DNA of 41,032 nucleotides from Gloeomargarita sp. SKYG116 (GTDB taxonomy: Bacteria; Cyanobacteriota; Cyanobacteriia; Gloeomargaritales; Gloeomargaritaceae), in NCBI GenBank assembly GCA_025056115.1, contig JANWVM010000013.1, forward strand, positions 11,110 to 52,141, in the 5' to 3' direction. The stretch's first letter is position 1; each line of letters starts with the position of its first letter. Below are positions 5,866 through 15,095 of this stretch, piece after piece. The notes under the pieces were generated by a model. It saw nothing but the letters and a program-made list of their open reading frames with translations. It had not been told where the DNA came from and did not search any database. Made by a program: the position numbers and the translations under genes.

Positions 5866-5946
5866 CCTAATCGTGAAATCGGGATGGCTGCAAATAGGTC
5901 AAGGCCACCAGTTAGACTGAGATGACTCCCTCATTAGGTGCAGGCG

Positions 5947-6218
5947 ATGGCCCGTTGGACTGACGCAATGCTGGACCGCTTGGCTGAACAAGTGCAGGCG
6001 AATATCGAAGCTATCAACCGCTTGGAAGCTAAAGTCGAAGCGAATGGGGAAGCCATCCGAGAGTTACGAGCAGGCCAAGCGATGATGATGGAGATTATCC
6101 AGCGTCAGGAAAACCGCGTTGAAGAGCTACGCCGGGTCGCAATATTCACGCCGATATTCGTCAACTGATGCAGATTCTCACACGCAATTATCCCAACGGT
6201 CGCCAGGATGTAGACTGA
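5947..6218 (+). pseudogene. Frameshifted first copy of the tandem coiled-coil gene family
   Basis: First of three tandem paralogs with the same head, MARWTDAMLDRLAEQVQAN. Homology to copies 2 and 3 is continuous through EIIQRQENRVEELR. Seven bases (6134-6140) then replace the eleven found between the same flanks in copy 2, a net loss of 4 nt. The frame shifts and stops at 6166-6168, leaving 73 residues. After the lesion the lost tail is still readable in another frame from AAT 6141 (NIHADIRQLMQILTRNYPNG) to TGA 6216-6218. The tail remains well conserved, so the break looks recent or could be a sequence error. The truncated head and coil might still be translated. Confidence 0.75.
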
Positions 6219-6245
6219 TAAAGAGTCTCTACTGGAGTTAGATAG

Positions 6246-6542
6246 ATGGCCCGTTGGACTGACGAGATGCTCGACCGCTTGGCTGAACAAGTCCAGGCAA
6301 ACGCAACTGCCATTCGGGAACTACGGGAAGCACAAGCGGTAATGATGACCCAAATCAATGCCAATGCTGAGGCGATTCGAGAGCTGCGAGAAGCGCAAGC
6401 GTCAATGATGGAAATCATCCAGCGCCAGGAAAATCGCATTGAAGAACTACGCCAAGACACTCGTAATATCCACGCCGATATTCGCCAGTTGCTGGCAATT
6501 CTCACCCGAAACTACCCCAATGGCCGGCAGGATGTAGAGTAG
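6246..6542 (+). CDS. Coiled-coil protein, tandem array copy 2
   Basis: A 98-aa protein of unknown function that appears intact. It has three parts: head MARWTDEMLDRLAEQVQAN (1-19), an Ala/Glu/Leu/Arg helix of heptad pattern built on xAIRELREAQ units (20-58), and a shared tail running from MMEIIQRQEN to the end (LLAILTRNYPNGRQD). It contains one 21-residue module between its two NAN boundaries. There is no signal peptide or membrane segment, so it is probably cytoplasmic. A GGAG ribosome site precedes ATG 6246. Relatives starting with RWTDEML occur in many cyanobacteria, often in tandem, and are annotated as hypothetical. Confidence 0.75.
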   Translation: MARWTDEMLDRLAEQVQANATAIRELREAQAVMMTQINANAEAIRELREAQASMMEIIQRQENRIEELRQDTRNIHADIRQLLAILTRNYPNGRQDVE

Positions 6543-6567
6543 AGAAAGTTGGGTTAGGGGTAAAGCC

Positions 6568-7098
6568 ATGGCCCGCTGGACCGATGAGATGCTAGACCGC
6601 TTAGCTGAGCAAGTGCAAGCGAACGCCGTTGCCATTCGAGAGCTAAGGGAACAAACTGCGGCAAACGCGACTGCCATTCGGGAACTGCGGGAAGCTCAAG
6701 CATTGATGATGGCCCAAATTAATGCCAATGCGGAAGCAATTCAGGAATTGCGGGTATCTGTGCGAGAACTACGGGAAGCGCAAGCGCAAGCGACAGCCCA
6801 AATCAACGCCAACGCCCAAGCCATTCAGGAATTGTGGGTATCTGTGCAGGAACTACGGGAAGCGCAAGCGCAAGCGACAGCCCAAATCAATGCCAACGCC
6901 CAAGCCATTCAGGAATTGCGGGTATCTGTGCAGGAACTACGGGAAGCACAAGCGTTAATGATGGAAATCATTCAGCGCCAGGAAAATCGCATTGAAGAAC
7001 TACGCCAAGACACTCGTAATATTCACGCTGATGTTCGTCAGTTGCTAGCAATACTTACTCGGAATTACCCGAACGGTCGTCAAGACAGGGATAACTAG
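6568..7098 (+). CDS. Coiled-coil protein with 28-residue repeats, tandem array copy 3
   Basis: A 176-aa paralog of copy 2 with the same head and tail but a much longer coil. After the head come modules of 14, 21, 28 and 28 residues, each ending in (A/I)NAN or AAN, then a last unit leading into the tail MMEIIQRQENRIEELRQDT. All lengths are multiples of seven, so heptad register is kept. At DNA level the last three units form an 84-bp direct repeat (6712-6963). It is soluble, very rich in Ala, Gln and Glu, and lacks Cys. It starts 25 bp after copy 2 ends and is the last gene before the hps operon, 285 bp away. No known function; scaffold or filament-like roles are speculation. Confidence 0.75.
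   Translation: MARWTDEMLDRLAEQVQANAVAIRELREQTAANATAIRELREAQALMMAQINANAEAIQELRVSVRELREAQAQATAQINANAQAIQELWVSVQELREAQAQATAQINANAQAIQELRVSVQELREAQALMMEIIQRQENRIEELRQDTRNIHADVRQLLAILTRNYPNGRQDRDN
6712..6963 (+). repeat. Three in-frame 84-bp tandem direct repeats
   Basis: Units start at 6712, 6796 and 6880, each beginning GCCCAAAT. Each encodes 28 residues (AQINANA.AIQELR.SV.ELREAQA). Units 2 and 3 differ at only three positions in their first 72 bases, then diverge at the last nine. Unit 1 is more diverged. The pattern is typical of slippage or unequal recombination. Confidence 0.9.
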
Positions 7099-7383
7099 AG
7101 TTTGAATGTAATGATTTTTACCTTATTTAATACTGCTTAAAATAAATTCACGCTGGGATGGTCAAAAATTGAGCTGAGAATGGGAAACCTACTGAGTGGA
7201 AGCGTCGTCCGAGCAGCTAGCCGTTTCCCTGGCGTTCATGCGTCTGAGACGACTGGTGATTCCTATCACAGGTGGGTCAAGGCGGATATGTTAGCAGTAT
7301 AGATAGCATATCCCCCCCTTGCCGGTGATGGGAATGCTTCTGTCCTTCTGTGTTCTATCCTCATCCTCTCTGGAGTTACGGTC
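7099..7383 (+). promoter_or_regulatory. 285-bp leader of the hps operon with two inverted repeats
   Basis: No gene is recognisable. Two inverted repeats stand out. The first is GGGAAAC (7182-7188) with GTTTCCC (7223-7229), enclosing 34 bases. The second is GGATATG (7284-7290) with CATATCC (7307-7313), extendable inward to 10 pairs with one G-U and a 10-nt loop. In addition GTCGTC (7204-7209), inside the first loop, can pair with GACGAC (7248-7253), which would make a pseudoknot. A CCCCCCC run follows the second stem. Neither stem has a T-run, so they are not ordinary terminators. GGAG at 7371-7374 is the ribosome site of hpsA. I do not recognise a known riboswitch. Confidence 0.4.
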
Positions 7384-10300
7384 ATGGCGCGTTCTCGACG
7401 GGTACACGCACTGCGGTTGCAACAAGGTCTTCTCATTTGGCTACTGAGCCGTTATTACCGGGCGAAGAAAGATGGTGGGTTTGTCCTACCTACAGCCACG
7501 CTGCTGATCATCGTGGCGTTTTTAATCATGATTGGCTTGGTGGCCCGGACGGCTAACCGCGTGGTTCAGGTAGCAGGACAGCGGGAACGGGTTGTCATCG
7601 AAGGTCCCACTTCCGAATCCATTGACCGGGCGCGGGCGAAGCTGGAGTACCTGTTTACTCGAGAAAGCCGGTTGTCCCGTGAGCAGCGCGAGCAAGAGAT
7701 TGAAGACTTGTTAGGGCACCGGCGACGGGATAATACTGGGCGAGTCGTTGGAGCAGCAGCGGTTAACGATGTCTATACGCTACCCGACGAAGTGCGCTGC
7801 GCTAGCCAGGATGGGAGATGTTTTGATGCGCCAGCTACTTACACGCCGGACAATATTGCACCCACGTGGGCTTACCGAGTGGATTTGAATGGCAATGGCC
7901 GCACGACAGACCCGCAGGATGGCGTAGCAGTTTATAGCATTATTGGGCGTGTTACACGCGCTGGTAGGAGTGCCGTACCCCGTGAAGGTTACACGCTGCT
8001 TCCAGACCGCAGGCAACGAGCTGCTAATTTTGTAGTCAACAACGCCCCTGTCCAAGCTGAGCAGGGTGATGCATTCTGTCAAGGTGCAGCGGGGGCTGGT
8101 GGTGGTTTTAATGAAGATACAGGGCGCTTTACGAGCGCTAGTAGTGCGGACGAGTACAAAAATTTTCAAGTCTATGCAGTTACTATTCCCAATCGGATTG
8201 GTCAGGACCCACAGCTGACCCTGAACGCAGCGGTATTTCAACAAGACCGTACCTACATAGGTGCTGGTAAGTGGGGTGCTTGGTTCCGCTATGACATTGA
8301 GATTCAGCGGCCCCCTCAATTTAACTGGAATGGGGCTATGCATACGGAAGGGTCCCTGATTTTGTACAGTCCCTTTGCTCCCCTGACAAGCTATCTCGTT
8401 AGTGCGCCTAATTCTTGCTACTACGTGCCGCCTTTCAACTCCCTGATTTCAACACGGGGGTTGCTGATGAGTGGCACGACAGATACCAATACGGATGACC
8501 CTGGGCCTAGTGTCTTTATCCATCTGCATCCTGGCGGGCGACAAGCACCAACCCAAATAATTCGTTTATCCCGTGGTGCTGGTCACCCCAACCCGCCGGG
8601 TCCTGGACAGTTTGATAACGATGATGCGGTGCGCAGTGGCTTTCTGCCGGCTGACATTGCCATAGACCCGCTCCACTTAGTTTTGACGGGGATTCCTTTG
8701 CCACGGCGGCGACCGGCAGGAACAGAAACCTATGACACCTATGTAGATTCCAATTTCTTTGGCGGTGCTTTGTCGCGACGGGTTCGAGTGGGCCGGTGTG
8801 AGGTACCGCCCTATGTAGATGACACGTATCGAGCGGACAATCGCTTGGGTCCTAAACCGTCCTATGAGCGGGGTAGCTGCGATGGTATCCAACCCTGGAC
8901 GGGCCGCGCTGGCGATCCCATTACCGATCCCAAGCTGATTAGTAACATCGCTCCCCCCGACAAGCCAGAGGACTATGGGCTGGATGGCTACTGGGAACGG
9001 CGCGCCTTGGGTCAAGGGATGAAGGTGATTGTGGGCCAGCGGCTGGAGCTGGGCAATGTCGGCGTCTGGGGTAGCTGGCGGACGTATGGGACTGTTAGTG
9101 GGACATGGAATCACTGGCAATCATGGAGCGCAACACCTGACCGTCGAGGCCAGTTGATTGACTCTAATGTCCCTACTACTAATCCCTACTTCAACGCTGG
9201 AACCAACCCCGAGAGTAGAGAAATCTATGGTTTACTCTTCCGGCCTGACACGATTATCAGAGCAGGGTCGCAAACGATTCCAGCACCGGGAGCTGCTGAT
9301 CCTTTGTACCCACCGTTGTTGCTTGGTTCTGTGATTGCTTCGACAAGTGAATACGAGTGGGGAACTATGCCGGCTCTACAGTTTGGCAGCCGTCTCAACT
9401 GGCAGTTGCACCGGCGTACCCAGCGGGACAATCTCGCAGCAGTGCAGGCGACAGCAGTCTATTACTATCGTGCGCAAGACCGGAGTTTGCCCTTGTTGTG
9501 CCTATCGAGTACGATTCACCCTGGAACAGAGGCGAGTTATCTCAATAGCATTACCTACGGCGATCCGGTGAGTCCGGCTGACCCGAATTCTGCTCAGGGT
9601 TTAACCCGCTATCCTCGCTTGAATGCCAACTTTGTCCGGCCCGTGGGAACCCAGGCACTCTTTCCGCCTGCGGACTTTTTCACCGGGCGGGGAACGGCCA
9701 ATATGGAGTACGGCGACGCGCTGAACCCACTTGACCCTCCGTTCGATGAAGAAGACTTTGACCGAGGGACGGCCTTGATGAAGGCGTTGACCAACTTGGC
9801 GTATTTTGCCGGTGACCCAAATGGGGCTTACCCGCCGTTGCAACGTCCTCAAGGGAGTACCCAGGTGCATCCTGACCCTGTGCTGACCATGTGGGGGAAT
9901 TTCTCCAACCTGCGACGGACGATTGGGATGCTAGGGAGTACAAGCTATGACCAACTCCCTCCGGCGGATCAGGCGAATCTACACACCGCAGGTTGCACGC
10001 TGGGAATCCTGGCGGACAACGTTTACTGGTACCTGGATTGGGGTTATCGTGGGCGTGGTCGTGACTTCTATATGTCGGGTAATCCTGATCAGCCATACCA
10101 AAACGAGCCTCCCACTCCTAATGTCCCACCCAATCCGCCCAACCAAGCGTCACCAGGTGACCGGGGAAGTTCTCCCAATATCGAAATCAACCTGAAGCGC
10201 CTGGCCGCGACCCTGCGGATGTTGCAGGATGGGCGTGAAGGTGCTGGCAATTATGAGATGGGACATGGCATCCTGGATTTCATTCCCAAGGGTGCAAGTA

Positions 10301-12771
10301 ACTGTCCTGTCAACCAATCTCCGCCTAACCCCAACTGCTACAACATTCCTGCGGAGTACTACATTGCGGCGCTGGCGCGGATTCGAGATAGCTTTGCAAC
10401 AGAACCCAACTGGAATACCGATCCTAACTCCAACTACCAGCGCTGGAACCGGCTGGTGTACCTGGCGCGGTTTGTGAACACTTGGTTGCAAATTGTGCGA
10501 GACCGTACCTATGGGTTCCGGGAGTATTTGCCGGGAGATCCGGTGTTCAGCGACGGTAGCTCCAATCGCACGATGAACCATGACCGAGACCAGAACAACC
10601 GTCGCTTGAGTTACCGTTTCCGCACAGCCAAAACTCATCCCGCAGACCCCTACGGTCCGCCTTTACCTCCGGATCCTCGCAACTTCAACCCGAATGACCT
10701 ATTGAGTGATCTACTTAACCCGCGCGTCGACCTGCCTTGCGACCTTAGCTTGGCTGACATCAACTACTTTGGATATCAGGTCGGGAACAATCCAACTGAC
10801 CGTAACAATGCTTTGGTTGAGCGAGAAATGATTGCTCTGGCCCGGTTGTGTCCGACGCAGCCCAAGTATCCATCTTTGTATTACCTGTTCCCAGGGGATT
10901 TGAACTCGGATGGGCAGGTTGGCGCAGGCGACCAGCACGGTCATGATGGAACGTCGGGGATCAACATGCGCAATAGTGACGACCCCAGCCCCTACAACCA
11001 ACCAAGTGGAAGCCCAACGAATCGAAACGAGAGATTCTCAGAGCCATATGTGCTAGGCCAATACATTGCGGAAGATGCGAACCGATTAGTTACTTACGAG
11101 CCATTTCCTGCGTCTGATTTAGAAGCGATGCGTCTGGCTGCTCGGGCTGGTTCGGACTACAACCCAAGGGACTGGCAGTTACCGGTGACTCAAGAACTCC
11201 CGGCTGGTGGGGGTAGTTTGCCACGGGATGCCAATGTCAATACGGCAGACCTATATCAGAAGGAGACTGACTTGATCATCAGTCGTTTCCAACCGAGCAA
11301 TGCCCGCCTGCTTCTGTCTGCCTACCGTACTGGCTTGGCTGAAAAGGCCCTGTTCAACGGACGGGAGTTGCAAACGGCGCGGGTGATGGACTTTGACATT
11401 GACCTGCTGCGGCGAGTTGACCGAGGGCCAAGGGGAGCCAATGATGCCTGGCTATCGGTGAGCAGTGGTATTGTCTATGCCTTCCGCGAAGATGCCATGC
11501 GAGAAGACGCCATTGCCCGCCCAGCAAACAGCACTTGGGACAGCTATTTGGCCGAATGGCGTAATCAATACCTGGATGGTCCAAGCTTGCCTTTCCGTAT
11601 GAACTACGACCCGCGCCGGCCATCGGACCCTCCGCTTGCACCCTCAGGCTTGAGTATTAAGCCGGTGGACTATTACGCCGACCCCAGCCGCCGGGTACAT
11701 GGGTTCCGCCTGATGAATGGCAACGATGTCAGCCGGATTGGCGGGAATCTTCCACCAGACCAGAACATCTACGGGCTGACATTTGTCAGTGATAACCCCG
11801 TCTATGTGATGACTCAATGGGCACGGGGTCGTAGTGGGTTTAACCTGCATATGAACGCGGCTGGTAATCCGATGGAAGAATTTCTGCAAGCCCTACCCTT
11901 CCCTTACGACTTCAACCAGTTTTATGGTCGGTCGGATCGCAACTATGCCTTCGCTACACCAGGTGGCGATACCTGGCGACCAGTCGAAATCCTAGCAGAT
12001 GCAGTTAGCTTGGTTACCCATAACTTCTGCGATGGGTATATCGAGCACGGTATCCGTAACGTACAGGATATTGACGGCCAGTTTGGCAACGAATGCACAA
12101 GCGGCAGCCCGTCGTTTAGAAATACCTTCCCCATCATAAGCCCCGATCTTGCTAACAATCCAGGCAGTGTTCCCCGTAACGGCTGGGCACGCGAATTTCC
12201 TTATGACCTGGGGTCGCCAATTATAGTGGGTAGCGACGGCACGCATCGTCTGCAGCAGACGGGTGCTACCCAAGCCATCGTGGGCGTTGACAACTACATG
12301 GATGCTGCGACTCGTTTTGGCCGTCGCTATGACTTTGTGCCCCTGCGGGGTACGGACTACACGGTCAATGCTGTGATTATCAGTGGTCTAGTGCCTTCAC
12401 GGCGAGGTCAACCCTATGGTGGCCTGCACAATTTCCCGCGGTTTCTGGAGGTTCAGCAAACTCCACTCCGGATTCAGGGGTCACTGCTGCAACTCAACTT
12501 CAGTAACTACGCTACAGGCCCCTTTGACTTCGATGCTCTGGAGCGGGACCGTGTGGGTGATACAGTTAATACATACTTCCCGTACTATGAACCGCCCCTA
12601 CGTTTCTGGGGATATGACCCAGCGCTGCAGTATGCACCGGCGGGCCCAGCATCCAAGCGCTTCCTGATGCTGTCTAACGCTCGGAATGAATACTTCTTGG
12701 AACTTGGGGCGCAAGACCCTTACATCTGCCGGTTGCGGCAATTCGTAACTCCCAACTTGACCTGCCCCTGA
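7384..12771 (+). CDS. hpsA: Giant pseudopilin-like surface protein HpsA
   Basis: A 1795-aa protein of the hormogonium polysaccharide HpsA type, which acts with type IV pilus-like machinery in polysaccharide secretion and motility of filamentous cyanobacteria. It has a basic leader of about 32 residues, then GGFVLPTATLLIIVAFLIM, a prepilin-like segment cut after Gly32 but with Thr instead of Glu at +5. The region TANRVVQVAGQRERVV and SIDRARAKLEYLF matches my recall of HpsA N-termini. The rest is a large extracellular region rich in Asn, Pro, Tyr and Gly, with few Cys and no clear enzymatic motif. Calcium-loop-like sites are VDLNGNGRTTDPQDG (about residue 170) and DLNSDGQVGAGD (residue 1172). 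It is followed after 13 bp by hpsB. Confidence 0.85.
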   Translation: MARSRRVHALRLQQGLLIWLLSRYYRAKKDGGFVLPTATLLIIVAFLIMIGLVARTANRVVQVAGQRERVVIEGPTSESIDRARAKLEYLFTRESRLSREQREQEIEDLLGHRRRDNTGRVVGAAAVNDVYTLPDEVRCASQDGRCFDAPATYTPDNIAPTWAYRVDLNGNGRTTDPQDGVAVYSIIGRVTRAGRSAVPREGYTLLPDRRQRAANFVVNNAPVQAEQGDAFCQGAAGAGGGFNEDTGRFTSASSADEYKNFQVYAVTIPNRIGQDPQLTLNAAVFQQDRTYIGAGKWGAWFRYDIEIQRPPQFNWNGAMHTEGSLILYSPFAPLTSYLVSAPNSCYYVPPFNSLISTRGLLMSGTTDTNTDDPGPSVFIHLHPGGRQAPTQIIRLSRGAGHPNPPGPGQFDNDDAVRSGFLPADIAIDPLHLVLTGIPLPRRRPAGTETYDTYVDSNFFGGALSRRVRVGRCEVPPYVDDTYRADNRLGPKPSYERGSCDGIQPWTGRAGDPITDPKLISNIAPPDKPEDYGLDGYWERRALGQGMKVIVGQRLELGNVGVWGSWRTYGTVSGTWNHWQSWSATPDRRGQLIDSNVPTTNPYFNAGTNPESREIYGLLFRPDTIIRAGSQTIPAPGAADPLYPPLLLGSVIASTSEYEWGTMPALQFGSRLNWQLHRRTQRDNLAAVQATAVYYYRAQDRSLPLLCLSSTIHPGTEASYLNSITYGDPVSPADPNSAQGLTRYPRLNANFVRPVGTQALFPPADFFTGRGTANMEYGDALNPLDPPFDEEDFDRGTALMKALTNLAYFAGDPNGAYPPLQRPQGSTQVHPDPVLTMWGNFSNLRRTIGMLGSTSYDQLPPADQANLHTAGCTLGILADNVYWYLDWGYRGRGRDFYMSGNPDQPYQNEPPTPNVPPNPPNQASPGDRGSSPNIEINLKRLAATLRMLQDGREGAGNYEMGHGILDFIPKGASNCPVNQSPPNPNCYNIPAEYYIAALARIRDSFATEPNWNTDPNSNYQRWNRLVYLARFVNTWLQIVRDRTYGFREYLPGDPVFSDGSSNRTMNHDRDQNNRRLSYRFRTAKTHPADPYGPPLPPDPRNFNPNDLLSDLLNPRVDLPCDLSLADINYFGYQVGNNPTDRNNALVEREMIALARLCPTQPKYPSLYYLFPGDLNSDGQVGAGDQHGHDGTSGINMRNSDDPSPYNQPSGSPTNRNERFSEPYVLGQYIAEDANRLVTYEPFPASDLEAMRLAARAGSDYNPRDWQLPVTQELPAGGGSLPRDANVNTADLYQKETDLIISRFQPSNARLLLSAYRTGLAEKALFNGRELQTARVMDFDIDLLRRVDRGPRGANDAWLSVSSGIVYAFREDAMREDAIARPANSTWDSYLAEWRNQYLDGPSLPFRMNYDPRRPSDPPLAPSGLSIKPVDYYADPSRRVHGFRLMNGNDVSRIGGNLPPDQNIYGLTFVSDNPVYVMTQWARGRSGFNLHMNAAGNPMEEFLQALPFPYDFNQFYGRSDRNYAFATPGGDTWRPVEILADAVSLVTHNFCDGYIEHGIRNVQDIDGQFGNECTSGSPSFRNTFPIISPDLANNPGSVPRNGWAREFPYDLGSPIIVGSDGTHRLQQTGATQAIVGVDNYMDAATRFGRRYDFVPLRGTDYTVNAVIISGLVPSRRGQPYGGLHNFPRFLEVQQTPLRIQGSLLQLNFSNYATGPFDFDALERDRVGDTVNTYFPYYEPPLRFWGYDPALQYAPAGPASKRFLMLSNARNEYFLELGAQDPYICRLRQFVTPNLTCP

Positions 12772-12784
12772 TGGAGGTACAACC

Positions 12785-13468
12785 ATGCGGCCTAAGCAGT
12801 TGCAGATACAGAGCGGTGGGTTCAGCTTAATTGAAGTTGTCGTGGCCACTGCCATTATTGGTCTCACGGCAGCGCTGATCCCGCCAATTGTTGCTCTTTC
12901 GGTTGCCGCTCGTGCTCAGAGCCAGCGAGTTGAGCAAGCTTATTTCTTGGCCCAGGGATACATCGATCTCGTGCGACTGAGGATGGAAAGGGGGCCAGCA
13001 GGTGGAAGTGTGTCTGATTTCATTAACGACATCAACAGGATAGTTCCTCCGAATAGTGCTACTTCGCTGGACGCGGTTCCACCACCAGCGGCTAATGCGT
13101 TGAGGAATGCTCCGCTTTGTGATTTGAGAAATCCCAATCCAAATGCGGGCCTTTGTCGCATCGATATTAATGCTGACGGGCGGCCAGATTTCGGAACACA
13201 GGCGTTTCGAGTTCGGCAGCAGCTAGCTTCAGATGGCAGGCCGATAGCCTTCGTTTTTGGGGTGCGGGTGTATCCGCGAGCCGTAGTGCAGGGAACCTAC
13301 ACCGGGCCGCTGGGGATTCGACCCGCAGCTGTCCGCTTAGGGGCAATAGAGGCTGTCAGTAACCCCCTGGCGGTGCAATATGGACGGGTGTTTATGCCAG
13401 ATGCACCTGATTCTTTGTTGAATCTGTGCTTAGTGTTAGGTGGTGACCAGGCTAGGTGTCGTCAGTAG
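12785..13468 (+). CDS. hpsB: Pseudopilin HpsB
   Basis: A 227-aa minor pseudopilin. A 12-residue leader ends in GG, followed by FSLIEVVVATAIIGLTAAL, a canonical type IV prepilin site with Glu at +5 and an N-terminal transmembrane helix. It would be processed by prepilin peptidase and inserted in the inner membrane as part of a pilus or secretion pseudopilus. The C-terminal region has a DINADGRPDFG loop (about residue 125) resembling a calcium-binding loop. A GGAGGT ribosome site sits upstream of ATG 12785. It is second in the operon. The HpsB name rests on position after hpsA and on the N-terminus. Confidence 0.78.
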   Translation: MRPKQLQIQSGGFSLIEVVVATAIIGLTAALIPPIVALSVAARAQSQRVEQAYFLAQGYIDLVRLRMERGPAGGSVSDFINDINRIVPPNSATSLDAVPPPAANALRNAPLCDLRNPNPNAGLCRIDINADGRPDFGTQAFRVRQQLASDGRPIAFVFGVRVYPRAVVQGTYTGPLGIRPAAVRLGAIEAVSNPLAVQYGRVFMPDAPDSLLNLCLVLGGDQARCRQ

Positions 13469-13490
13469 GGGGGCAAGGAGAATGCAAGTC

Positions 13491-14507
13491 ATGCGCAGAT
13501 GGTTGCTAACAATGCTTCAGTCCAAGAATCGCTTAGCTCGCGCTGGGTTTACGGTAGCTGAGCTGCTGGTTGGTGCGACACTGGGGGTGGTGCTGTTAGG
13601 CGGGATGATGTACCTGGTTACTGAGATGCTCCGCACCGAGCGCACGGAGACAGCGCGTAGCGAGACCGAGCGGGAAATGGCGCAGGCGTTGGACTACATT
13701 GCGTCGGAACTGCGGGAAGCGGTGTTGGTCTATGACCGGAACTGCTTGGGAGCTGATGGCACAGGGAATGGTACAACTTGCCAGGGACTGAGACTGCCGC
13801 GCAATACGGTGCTGGCGTTTTGGAAGCGGGAAGAGCTGCCGGATTTGAATCTTCTGAATCTCTCTGGAGCGCCTTCTGATGAATACGCCGTTCTCGATTG
13901 GTATGCCCGAAATCGCTGTGGGGGAAACCAAGATTGCCAGCGAGTGATGAACTACACTCGCACACAGTACGTACTGGTTGTGTACGTGTTGTGCCGCAAC
14001 CCTGGTGGGCCGCCTACTCGGCCTGGTGGACCTGCTTGCGGTTTTACTACTGATACGCAGCCTCGTGGCCCAGCGCGGATTGTACGGGGGTATTTCTACC
14101 AGTACCAATGGGCTCCCTCCTTTGCGGACCGTCTCGCCAATCTCGACCCATTGACAGGTCCTACATGGCCTAGTACTATCCCGCACTGGAATGGACCTAA
14201 TTCCGATACCGCTATCTTAGTTTCCAATGTGGATTGGACTGGGGACCGTGTTTCTATCAATTGCCCACCAGGTTACCTATCTTCCACAGGTGCAGGGTCG
14301 GATACGGGGTTTCCATCGTTTTTCGCCTGTGTGCGGGAGCGGGTTGGAGAGGGTACTGGCTTTGTGCAGGATGTGTATCTCTACCTGCGGGGGAATGCCG
14401 CTGAACGGGCCGGCTTACGGGAAATTGAGCGGGGGACTAATCAGTTCCGTCCAGCAGTAGAAACCCAAGTGCGCACCCGTGGAAGCTACAACCGGCGACC
14501 CAGTTAA
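13491..14507 (+). CDS. hpsC: Pseudopilin HpsC
   Basis: A minor pseudopilin of about 338 aa in the PilW/GspJ size range. I chose ATG 13491 because AAGGAG at 13475-13480 then lies 10 nt upstream. ATG 13482 would be only 1 nt from it, and the GTG at 13440 would overlap hpsB. The leader ends at Gly19, then FTVAELLVGATLGVVLLGGMM, a prepilin helix with Glu at +5. The segment ETEREMAQALDYIASELREAV is the helical continuation typical of PilW/GspJ. The distal domain has several Cys. It lies 22 bp after hpsB and 18 bp before the next pseudopilin. Confidence 0.78.
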   Translation: MRRWLLTMLQSKNRLARAGFTVAELLVGATLGVVLLGGMMYLVTEMLRTERTETARSETEREMAQALDYIASELREAVLVYDRNCLGADGTGNGTTCQGLRLPRNTVLAFWKREELPDLNLLNLSGAPSDEYAVLDWYARNRCGGNQDCQRVMNYTRTQYVLVVYVLCRNPGGPPTRPGGPACGFTTDTQPRGPARIVRGYFYQYQWAPSFADRLANLDPLTGPTWPSTIPHWNGPNSDTAILVSNVDWTGDRVSINCPPGYLSSTGAGSDTGFPSFFACVRERVGEGTGFVQDVYLYLRGNAAERAGLREIERGTNQFRPAVETQVRTRGSYNRRPS

Positions 14508-14525
14508 CTTTAGGAGGTAAACCCT

Positions 14526-15095
14526 ATGCAACCGGTCAAAGCTAATCAAGGATTTACTCTAGTTGAAGTTGTCGTTATCGCTGTCATCATAGGCATCTTA
14601 GCTGCGATTGCTGCACCTAGTTGGCTGGCTATTCTGACGCGCCAGCGTTTGTACAACGCCCGTGCTAACGCTCTAGACAAAATCCGCGAAGCCCAAAGTC
14701 AAGCCATTCGCACCTCGCGCCCTTGGGAAGTTTGTTTTCGGGATAGAAATGGCTTTGTGGAAGTGTCAGTGCAACCGGGGGGGCGTGCATATAACTGCCG
14801 GAATCATACCAGTTGGCAATCTCTCATGGACAGCGATGCCCGTACAGTTGCTATTGACCCTGCCAATACCACTTCAAATCCACAATTTGGCACCAACCCC
14901 ACGGATGGTTACAGCTTCCGTTTTGGCCCGTTCGGTGATAGGGCTGGCCTCGGAGGCAGTGATCCACAGTTGGTATTTATTCCTCGGGGGCAACCCAGAG
15001 GGCCGTACTATTGCGTAGTTGCTGAAGGTATTATTGGTCAGGTACGCGAAGGAAAATTGCAGCGGACTAACGAGGGCCGACTGAGGTGCCGATAA
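14526..15095 (+). CDS. GspH/FimT-family pseudopilin
   Basis: A 189-aa pseudopilin and the fourth gene of the hps operon. It has a short 9-residue leader, then FTLVEVVVIAVIIGILAAIA with Glu at +5, ALDKIREAQSQAIRTSRP typical of GspH/FimT helices, and a beta-rich C-terminal domain with a few Cys (WEVCFRD, AYNCRN, YYCVVAEG). A very strong AGGAGGT ribosome site precedes ATG 14526. In filamentous species a fourth pseudopilin called HpsD occurs in this neighbourhood, but I cannot tell whether this is its ortholog. It probably primes or caps the pseudopilus together with HpsB and HpsC. Confidence 0.85.
   Translation: MQPVKANQGFTLVEVVVIAVIIGILAAIAAPSWLAILTRQRLYNARANALDKIREAQSQAIRTSRPWEVCFRDRNGFVEVSVQPGGRAYNCRNHTSWQSLMDSDARTVAIDPANTTSNPQFGTNPTDGYSFRFGPFGDRAGLGGSDPQLVFIPRGQPRGPYYCVVAEGIIGQVREGKLQRTNEGRLRCR

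Follow-up and report, generated by a model that had tools for sequence, protein, structure and literature searches.

A tandem array of coiled-coil genes in Gloeomargarita and the RWTD-head family of cyanobacteria

The RepMP1/DUF16 proteins of Mycoplasma pneumoniae (PF01519) are multi-copy paralogues in which a conserved proximal part is joined to a coiled coil of variable length (PMC3472980). Their coils vary by whole 21-nt (7-aa) tandem repeats, a variation that has been attributed to slipped-strand mispairing plus unequal crossover, and the function of the proteins is unknown (PMC3472980). Among coiled coils of constrained geometry, the stalks of trimeric autotransporter adhesins carry asparagine residues at heptad position d that coordinate anions in the core, and four-residue insertions known as 'stutters' are accommodated by coiled coils (PMC4786415). 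The linkers of phytochrome-activated diguanylate cyclases fall into length classes that mostly differ by sevens, with a minority of -4 and +2 (PMC9587094), and the arms of bacterial Smc proteins have a coil length under periodic constraint (PMC5344682). Molecular rulers and spacers keep their length conserved (PMC5082667). Here we compare these systems with an array of coiled-coil genes from Gloeomargarita sp. SKYG116 and with its relatives in other cyanobacteria.

The array and the RWTD-head family

The window (the whole stretch of DNA analysed, 41,032 nt) belongs to genome G000, which has 2.37 Mb in 258 contigs and is one of seven genomes of the Gloeomargarita group, referred to below as the genus. 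Positions 5947-7098 hold three same-strand genes arranged head-to-tail (Table 1). The ORF translations agree with the preliminary description that these are neighbouring paralogs, and also with the N-A-N spacers that it gave, the N-to-N distances being 14 residues in copy 1 (N19-N33), 21 in copy 2 (N19-N40), and 14, 21, 28 and 28 in copy 3 (N19, 33, 54, 82 and 110). A common head and tail had been claimed for all three genes, which is correct for copies 2 and 3, but in copy 1 the tail is out of frame and A replaces E in the head (MARWTDAMLDRL). When aligned to copy 2 and to the copy in G001, copy 1 is without 4 nt near 6134-6138, just before the tail, and its ORF stops at 6168 and ends in RRVAIFTPIFVN; copy 1 is either a pseudogene or an assembly error.

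Table 1. Coordinates of the array, its neighbours and related loci (window positions unless a locus is named)
Feature	Location	Strand	Remarks
Copy 1, RWTD-head coiled-coil gene	5947..6168	+	73 aa; frameshift truncates ORF
Copy 1 tail remainder, out of frame (RNIHADIRQLMQILTRNYPNGRQDVD)	6138..6218	+	4-nt gap in alignments
Copy 2, intact	6246..6542	+	98 aa; one predicted helix 2-89, pLDDT 92
Copy 3, intact	6568..7098	+	176 aa; one predicted helix 2-166, pLDDT 93
84-nt (28-residue) tandem repeat within copy 3	6712..6954	+	2.9 copies, 92% match
CRP-type palindrome GGTGATTCCTATCACA, putative site between array and hpsA	7255..7270	+	conserved in 5 genus genomes
hpsA (neighbour; link positional)	7384..12771	+	NF038301 EPS_HpsA, 425 bits vs cut-off 400
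Three pseudopilin-like ORFs	12785..15095 (12785-13468, 13440-14507, 14526-15095)	+	GF(S/T)xxE-type N-termini in translations
lgt-adjacent family members	L046 5102-5830; L050 5243-6214; L053 5066-5362; L056 4277-4594		
Membrane-anchored relatives	L063, L066, L067, L074, L076, L080, L081, L097, L148		

Between copies 2 and 3, the head and tail together have 22 synonymous vs 2 replacement differences (dS 1.02, dN 0.014). In the variable middle, no a/d position was changed in 8/8 pairwise comparisons, the pairs of which are not all independent, and the other positions had 0-9 changes and were changed in 7/8 comparisons. This pattern of substitution indicates that the genes are real, conserved and under strong purifying selection. 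Hydrophobic residues recurred with a peak near 3.5 residues (3.50-3.52) in 18/18 distinct sequences of the genus (shuffle p=0.0005 each), and one register spans the proteins from head to tail, with mostly I/V/L at position a and mostly L/N/M at position d. AlphaFold runs of the monomers returned a single continuous helix for each of copies 2 and 3, with low confidence for the NYPNG tail end. The structure-prediction check proposed at the outset thus gave one helix for each intact copy, in line with the 3.5-residue periodicity. Strong purifying selection, the unchanged a/d core and the single predicted helix together show that the products are genuine coiled-coil proteins.

Asparagine is distributed unevenly in the coils, with 68 of the 93 coil Asn residues at d and none at a; enrichment at d together with absence from a is the pattern of N@d trimeric coiled coils. 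When the PDB was searched with the family profile, the only sequence match was a trimeric adhesin stalk fragment (2wpr, E=0.007). The Asn-at-d core and the 2wpr match favour a trimer but do not prove it, and a dimeric coil is likewise compatible with Ile/Val at a and Leu at d. Inspection of the translations revealed no signal peptide or membrane segment in the proteins of the genus, and their location is probably cytoplasmic.

The proteins of the array have an N-terminal RW[TS][DN]xxLDx(L/M)A motif and, after it, a coil, which is the definition of the RWTD-head family used here. With a strict DNA pattern, this head turned up in 42 of the 390 cyanobacterial genomes sampled, which represent at least 21 of the 160 genera, and the same pattern read backward gave 1 match vs about 70 real ones. 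The head is common to the relatives, the coil and the end differ, and some relatives finish in a membrane segment. In these membrane-anchored relatives (Table 1) the RWTD head and a short coil precede a conserved segment of the QWVVNLAFGLLATATITTIVTAV type, with 42, 49, 56 or 63 residues ahead of the membrane segment. Outside the genus, no consistent partner gene was found, the neighbours being unrelated housekeeping genes (e.g. sucC or sucD in two genomes). At one locus a related head-coil gene adjoins sucC (L106, about 5989-6276) and in another genome one adjoins sucD (L110, 5989-6231), each as if inserted in an operon (sucC and sucD named by inspection).

Searches of Pfam, NCBIfam and PHROGs returned no curated family at its cut-off, and membership in any of their families was rejected because the matches were sub-threshold or due to coil composition. 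PF01519 scored 21.7 bits for copy 1 and 14.2 bits for copies 2 and 3, below its gathering cut-off of 40 bits, and the weak NCBIfam matches to SMC models arise from coil composition. In a plasmid search, a membrane-type relative had three weak matches, from Acaryochloris, each labelled 'hypothetical protein'. No prior description of the family was found in the open-access literature. The RWTD-head family is undescribed, widespread, conserved and unannotated.

On balance, we favour the view that the array consists of paralogues of this undescribed cyanobacterial family, and that their products are small coiled-coil rods that associate with themselves, are probably located in the cytoplasm and can vary freely in length. 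In them, a short head conserved at the N-terminus (RW[TN]DExLDxLA) and an end conserved at the C-terminus, which in this genus reads LLxxLTRNYPNG, flank a coil of changeable length. The ends would most likely do the binding, the coil would only join the chains (as a dimer, or as a trimer from the Asn-at-d core), and coil length itself would be without tight constraint. Such proteins may act as scaffolds or adaptors. A more far-reaching proposal, which we put forward tentatively, is that RWTD-head proteins form a large scaffold family with interchangeable ends (a soluble tail or a membrane segment at the C-terminus) and a coil that is freely tunable in length, locked in register and possibly trimeric, and that they are kept as fast-evolving sets of paralogues, which vary the reach of one conserved docking head.

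Coil length and heptad register

Lengths were taken between fixed anchors and are therefore free of alignment bias, the anchors having been picked after the sequences were seen. All intact head-to-tail copies of the MARW-type subfamily in the genus (19/19, with 9 lengths) were 2 mod 7, and the anchor distances in the genus ranged from 65 to 233 residues. Nine lengths in one mod-7 class would have a probability of (1/7)^8, about 2e-7, if the lengths were free in-frame steps; with unit duplication, a single class is to be expected. The nine lengths and the 3.5-residue periodicity bear out the proposal of a length-variable coiled-coil family. The MA(Q/P)RW-type subfamily of the genus also kept to one mod-7 class (5/5 copies, 3 lengths), as did each of two subfamilies from other genera, the C-terminal membrane type (9/9, 4 lengths) and the DG(V/L)R type (11/11, 6 lengths). 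A KVD-anchored length class was discarded because its anchor was not specific.

Four further segments have exceptions to multiples of seven, and every one of them is 7n±4. The Pseudanabaena-type exceptions are 34 to 38 (+4) and 59 to 84 (+25), and the remaining ones are 47 to 58 (+11), 55 to 59 and 76 to 80. The multiples-of-seven rule of the preliminary description is thus upheld by the single mod-7 class in four subfamilies, and elsewhere it is broken by exceptions that are all 7n±4. As a strict rule of seven it fails, since homologues with other insertions had been named beforehand as the counter-evidence and relatives with +4, +11 and +25 exist. In its place, a coil-compatible rule (7n or 7n±4) holds within the sample of about 31 length steps, in which neither the steps nor the lengths in one clade are independent.

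Indels between closely related copies were 21, 42, 84, 126 and 168 nt long, and the tandem periods were 84 nt in copy 3 and 42, 84 and 168 nt in a 245-aa gene of G004. Copy 3 has one 84-nt unit beyond its 99.1% identical counterpart in G001. Since each recent indel has the size of a DNA repeat unit, in-register steps are provided by mutation on its own, and in the case of these recent changes the bias of mutation is not separable from selection for register. Replication slippage or unequal recombination would gain or lose whole repeat units of 21, 42, 84 or 168 nt; the coil would keep its register because every such unit spans a whole number of seven-codon blocks, and selection would purge variants in which the frame, the core or the register is disrupted.

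The exact repeat-unit size of the recent indels would also be expected if the heptad-multiple lengths were a pure by-product of repeat-unit slippage, with register unselected. However, we consider this unlikely, because the rule extends to membrane-type and DG(V/L)R-type relatives in other genera with diverse middles, the a/d residues are constant while others change, and the exceptions are all 7n±4, which coils tolerate. Selection for register, as suggested earlier, therefore draws support from the independent lineages in register and the unchanged a/d positions, but not from the recent indels. The family offers a natural data set for the evolution of coiled-coil length, with fixed ends and many homologues in many cyanobacterial genera. 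Because the sampled coils change by 7n or 7n±4 alone, the register constraint on indels is directly measurable, and one membrane-type relative occurs in Picosynechococcus sp. PCC 7117, whose genus can be manipulated genetically.

Neighbourhood of the arrays

The array had been placed directly before the hps genes. Indeed hpsA follows, but a 285-nt gap containing a CRP-type palindrome intervenes. The palindrome GGTGATTCCTATCACA was found exactly once per genome (≤1 mismatch), always upstream of hpsA, in five genomes of the genus, and the version in G003 has 2 mismatches. This conserved site in the gap makes it probable that hpsA has its own promoter, and points to regulation of the hps operon by a cAMP receptor. 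In Synechocystis, pilus genes are under CRP control (PMC2633013).

In G000, G001, G002, G004 and G005 the array ends 285-349 nt before hpsA, and in G003 a decayed array remnant lies before hpsA, with no other family member detected in that genome. Over its first 800 residues, hpsA shows no more than 61-67% identity between the lineage of the window and the G002-G005 lineages, which makes the adjacency an old one in the genus. Outside the genus, no family copy was found near hpsA in the cyanobacterial genomes searched with the head pattern, so that linkage to hpsA across lineages is confined to the Gloeomargarita group. The co-location anticipated in related genomes thus holds within the genus and was not seen outside it, and the link to the hps pseudopilus is, as first described, purely positional: a genus-level synteny in 5/7 genomes plus one remnant. 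A position inherited within the genus gives no evidence for a part in the pseudopilus, and such a role for the array is not supported. In G002, G004, G005 and G006 a family copy ends 2-14 nt before lgt (named by inspection; presumably encoding prolipoprotein diacylglyceryl transferase), a tighter linkage than that with hpsA. Further arrays lie by cbiO (named by inspection) and elsewhere.

It is very improbable that these proteins serve as spacers or rulers of tuned length that measure a distance, for example in the hps pseudopilus apparatus. The length does vary in register, and the array or its remnant is directly upstream of hpsA in 6/7 genomes of the genus. On the other hand, anchor distances within this one genus span 65 to 233 residues, G003 keeps hpsA yet has merely a decayed remnant, a copy lies 2-14 nt before lgt in four genomes, no copy outside the genus was found near hpsA, even in genomes with long contigs (e.g. 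G012, G089), the genus proteins have no visible signal peptide or membrane segment, and hpsA has a conserved site of its own upstream. Coil length is not conserved among orthologues, with a one-unit difference between 99% identical copies; it also varies from one paralogue to the next in a single array, and between genomes that are 98-99% identical to each other. The ruler idea of the preliminary description is not supported because length is not conserved.

The array of G000 (window 5938-7098) joins CPase/thioredoxin/acs genes to hpsA, and in the 98-99% identical G001 the CPase/thioredoxin/acs genes join cbiO via an array. Contigs end within arrays at G001:C32, G001:C34, G000:C182 and G006:C99. 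Arrays as genome breakpoints (also L043, L058, L042 and L044) reflect either array-to-array recombination or misassembly. The gene order of the window across the array position is supported by G003. That the genes are a selfish or phage-derived repeat with no function for the host, as the multi-locus, multi-copy and patchy distribution, the transposase-like ORFs near one array (L047) and the contigs ending within arrays could suggest, is already disfavoured and highly unlikely given the strong purifying selection, a search of viral contigs and phage records that yielded no family match, and a window array with no transposase or mobility gene of its own.

Comparison with known systems

The coils of the RWTD-head family share a periodic constraint on length with the arms of bacterial Smc, which, unlike the family here, belong to an ATPase (PMC5344682). 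The length classes of the phytochrome-activated diguanylate cyclases are likewise similar, but in those enzymes the coil connects defined domains and its length tunes enzyme output, whereas here there are no globular domains (PMC9587094). Trimeric autotransporter adhesins with N@d stalks (PMC4786415; PDB 2wpr/2wps) are alike in having Asn at d and (I/V)xxN(T/A)xx heptads. Unlike in those adhesins, no signal peptide is visible in the genus proteins, nor is an adhesin head or a membrane anchor; the Pfam matches listed include no adhesin anchor domain, and the whole protein is one predicted helix. The resemblance to the adhesin stalk is likely one of coil type, not of descent.

RepMP1/DUF16 of M. 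pneumoniae is like the family here in its multi-copy paralogues, its conserved proximal part and its length-variable coiled coil (PMC3472980), and the genes here do vary in the same way, with coiled coils that differ between paralogues by entire tandem units of 21n nt. The head is not common to the two families and, unlike in DUF16, the units here are often 42-168 nt and the genes lie in head-to-tail arrays. With the DUF16 precedent, the kind of variation is therefore already known, and it is the protein family itself that is new.
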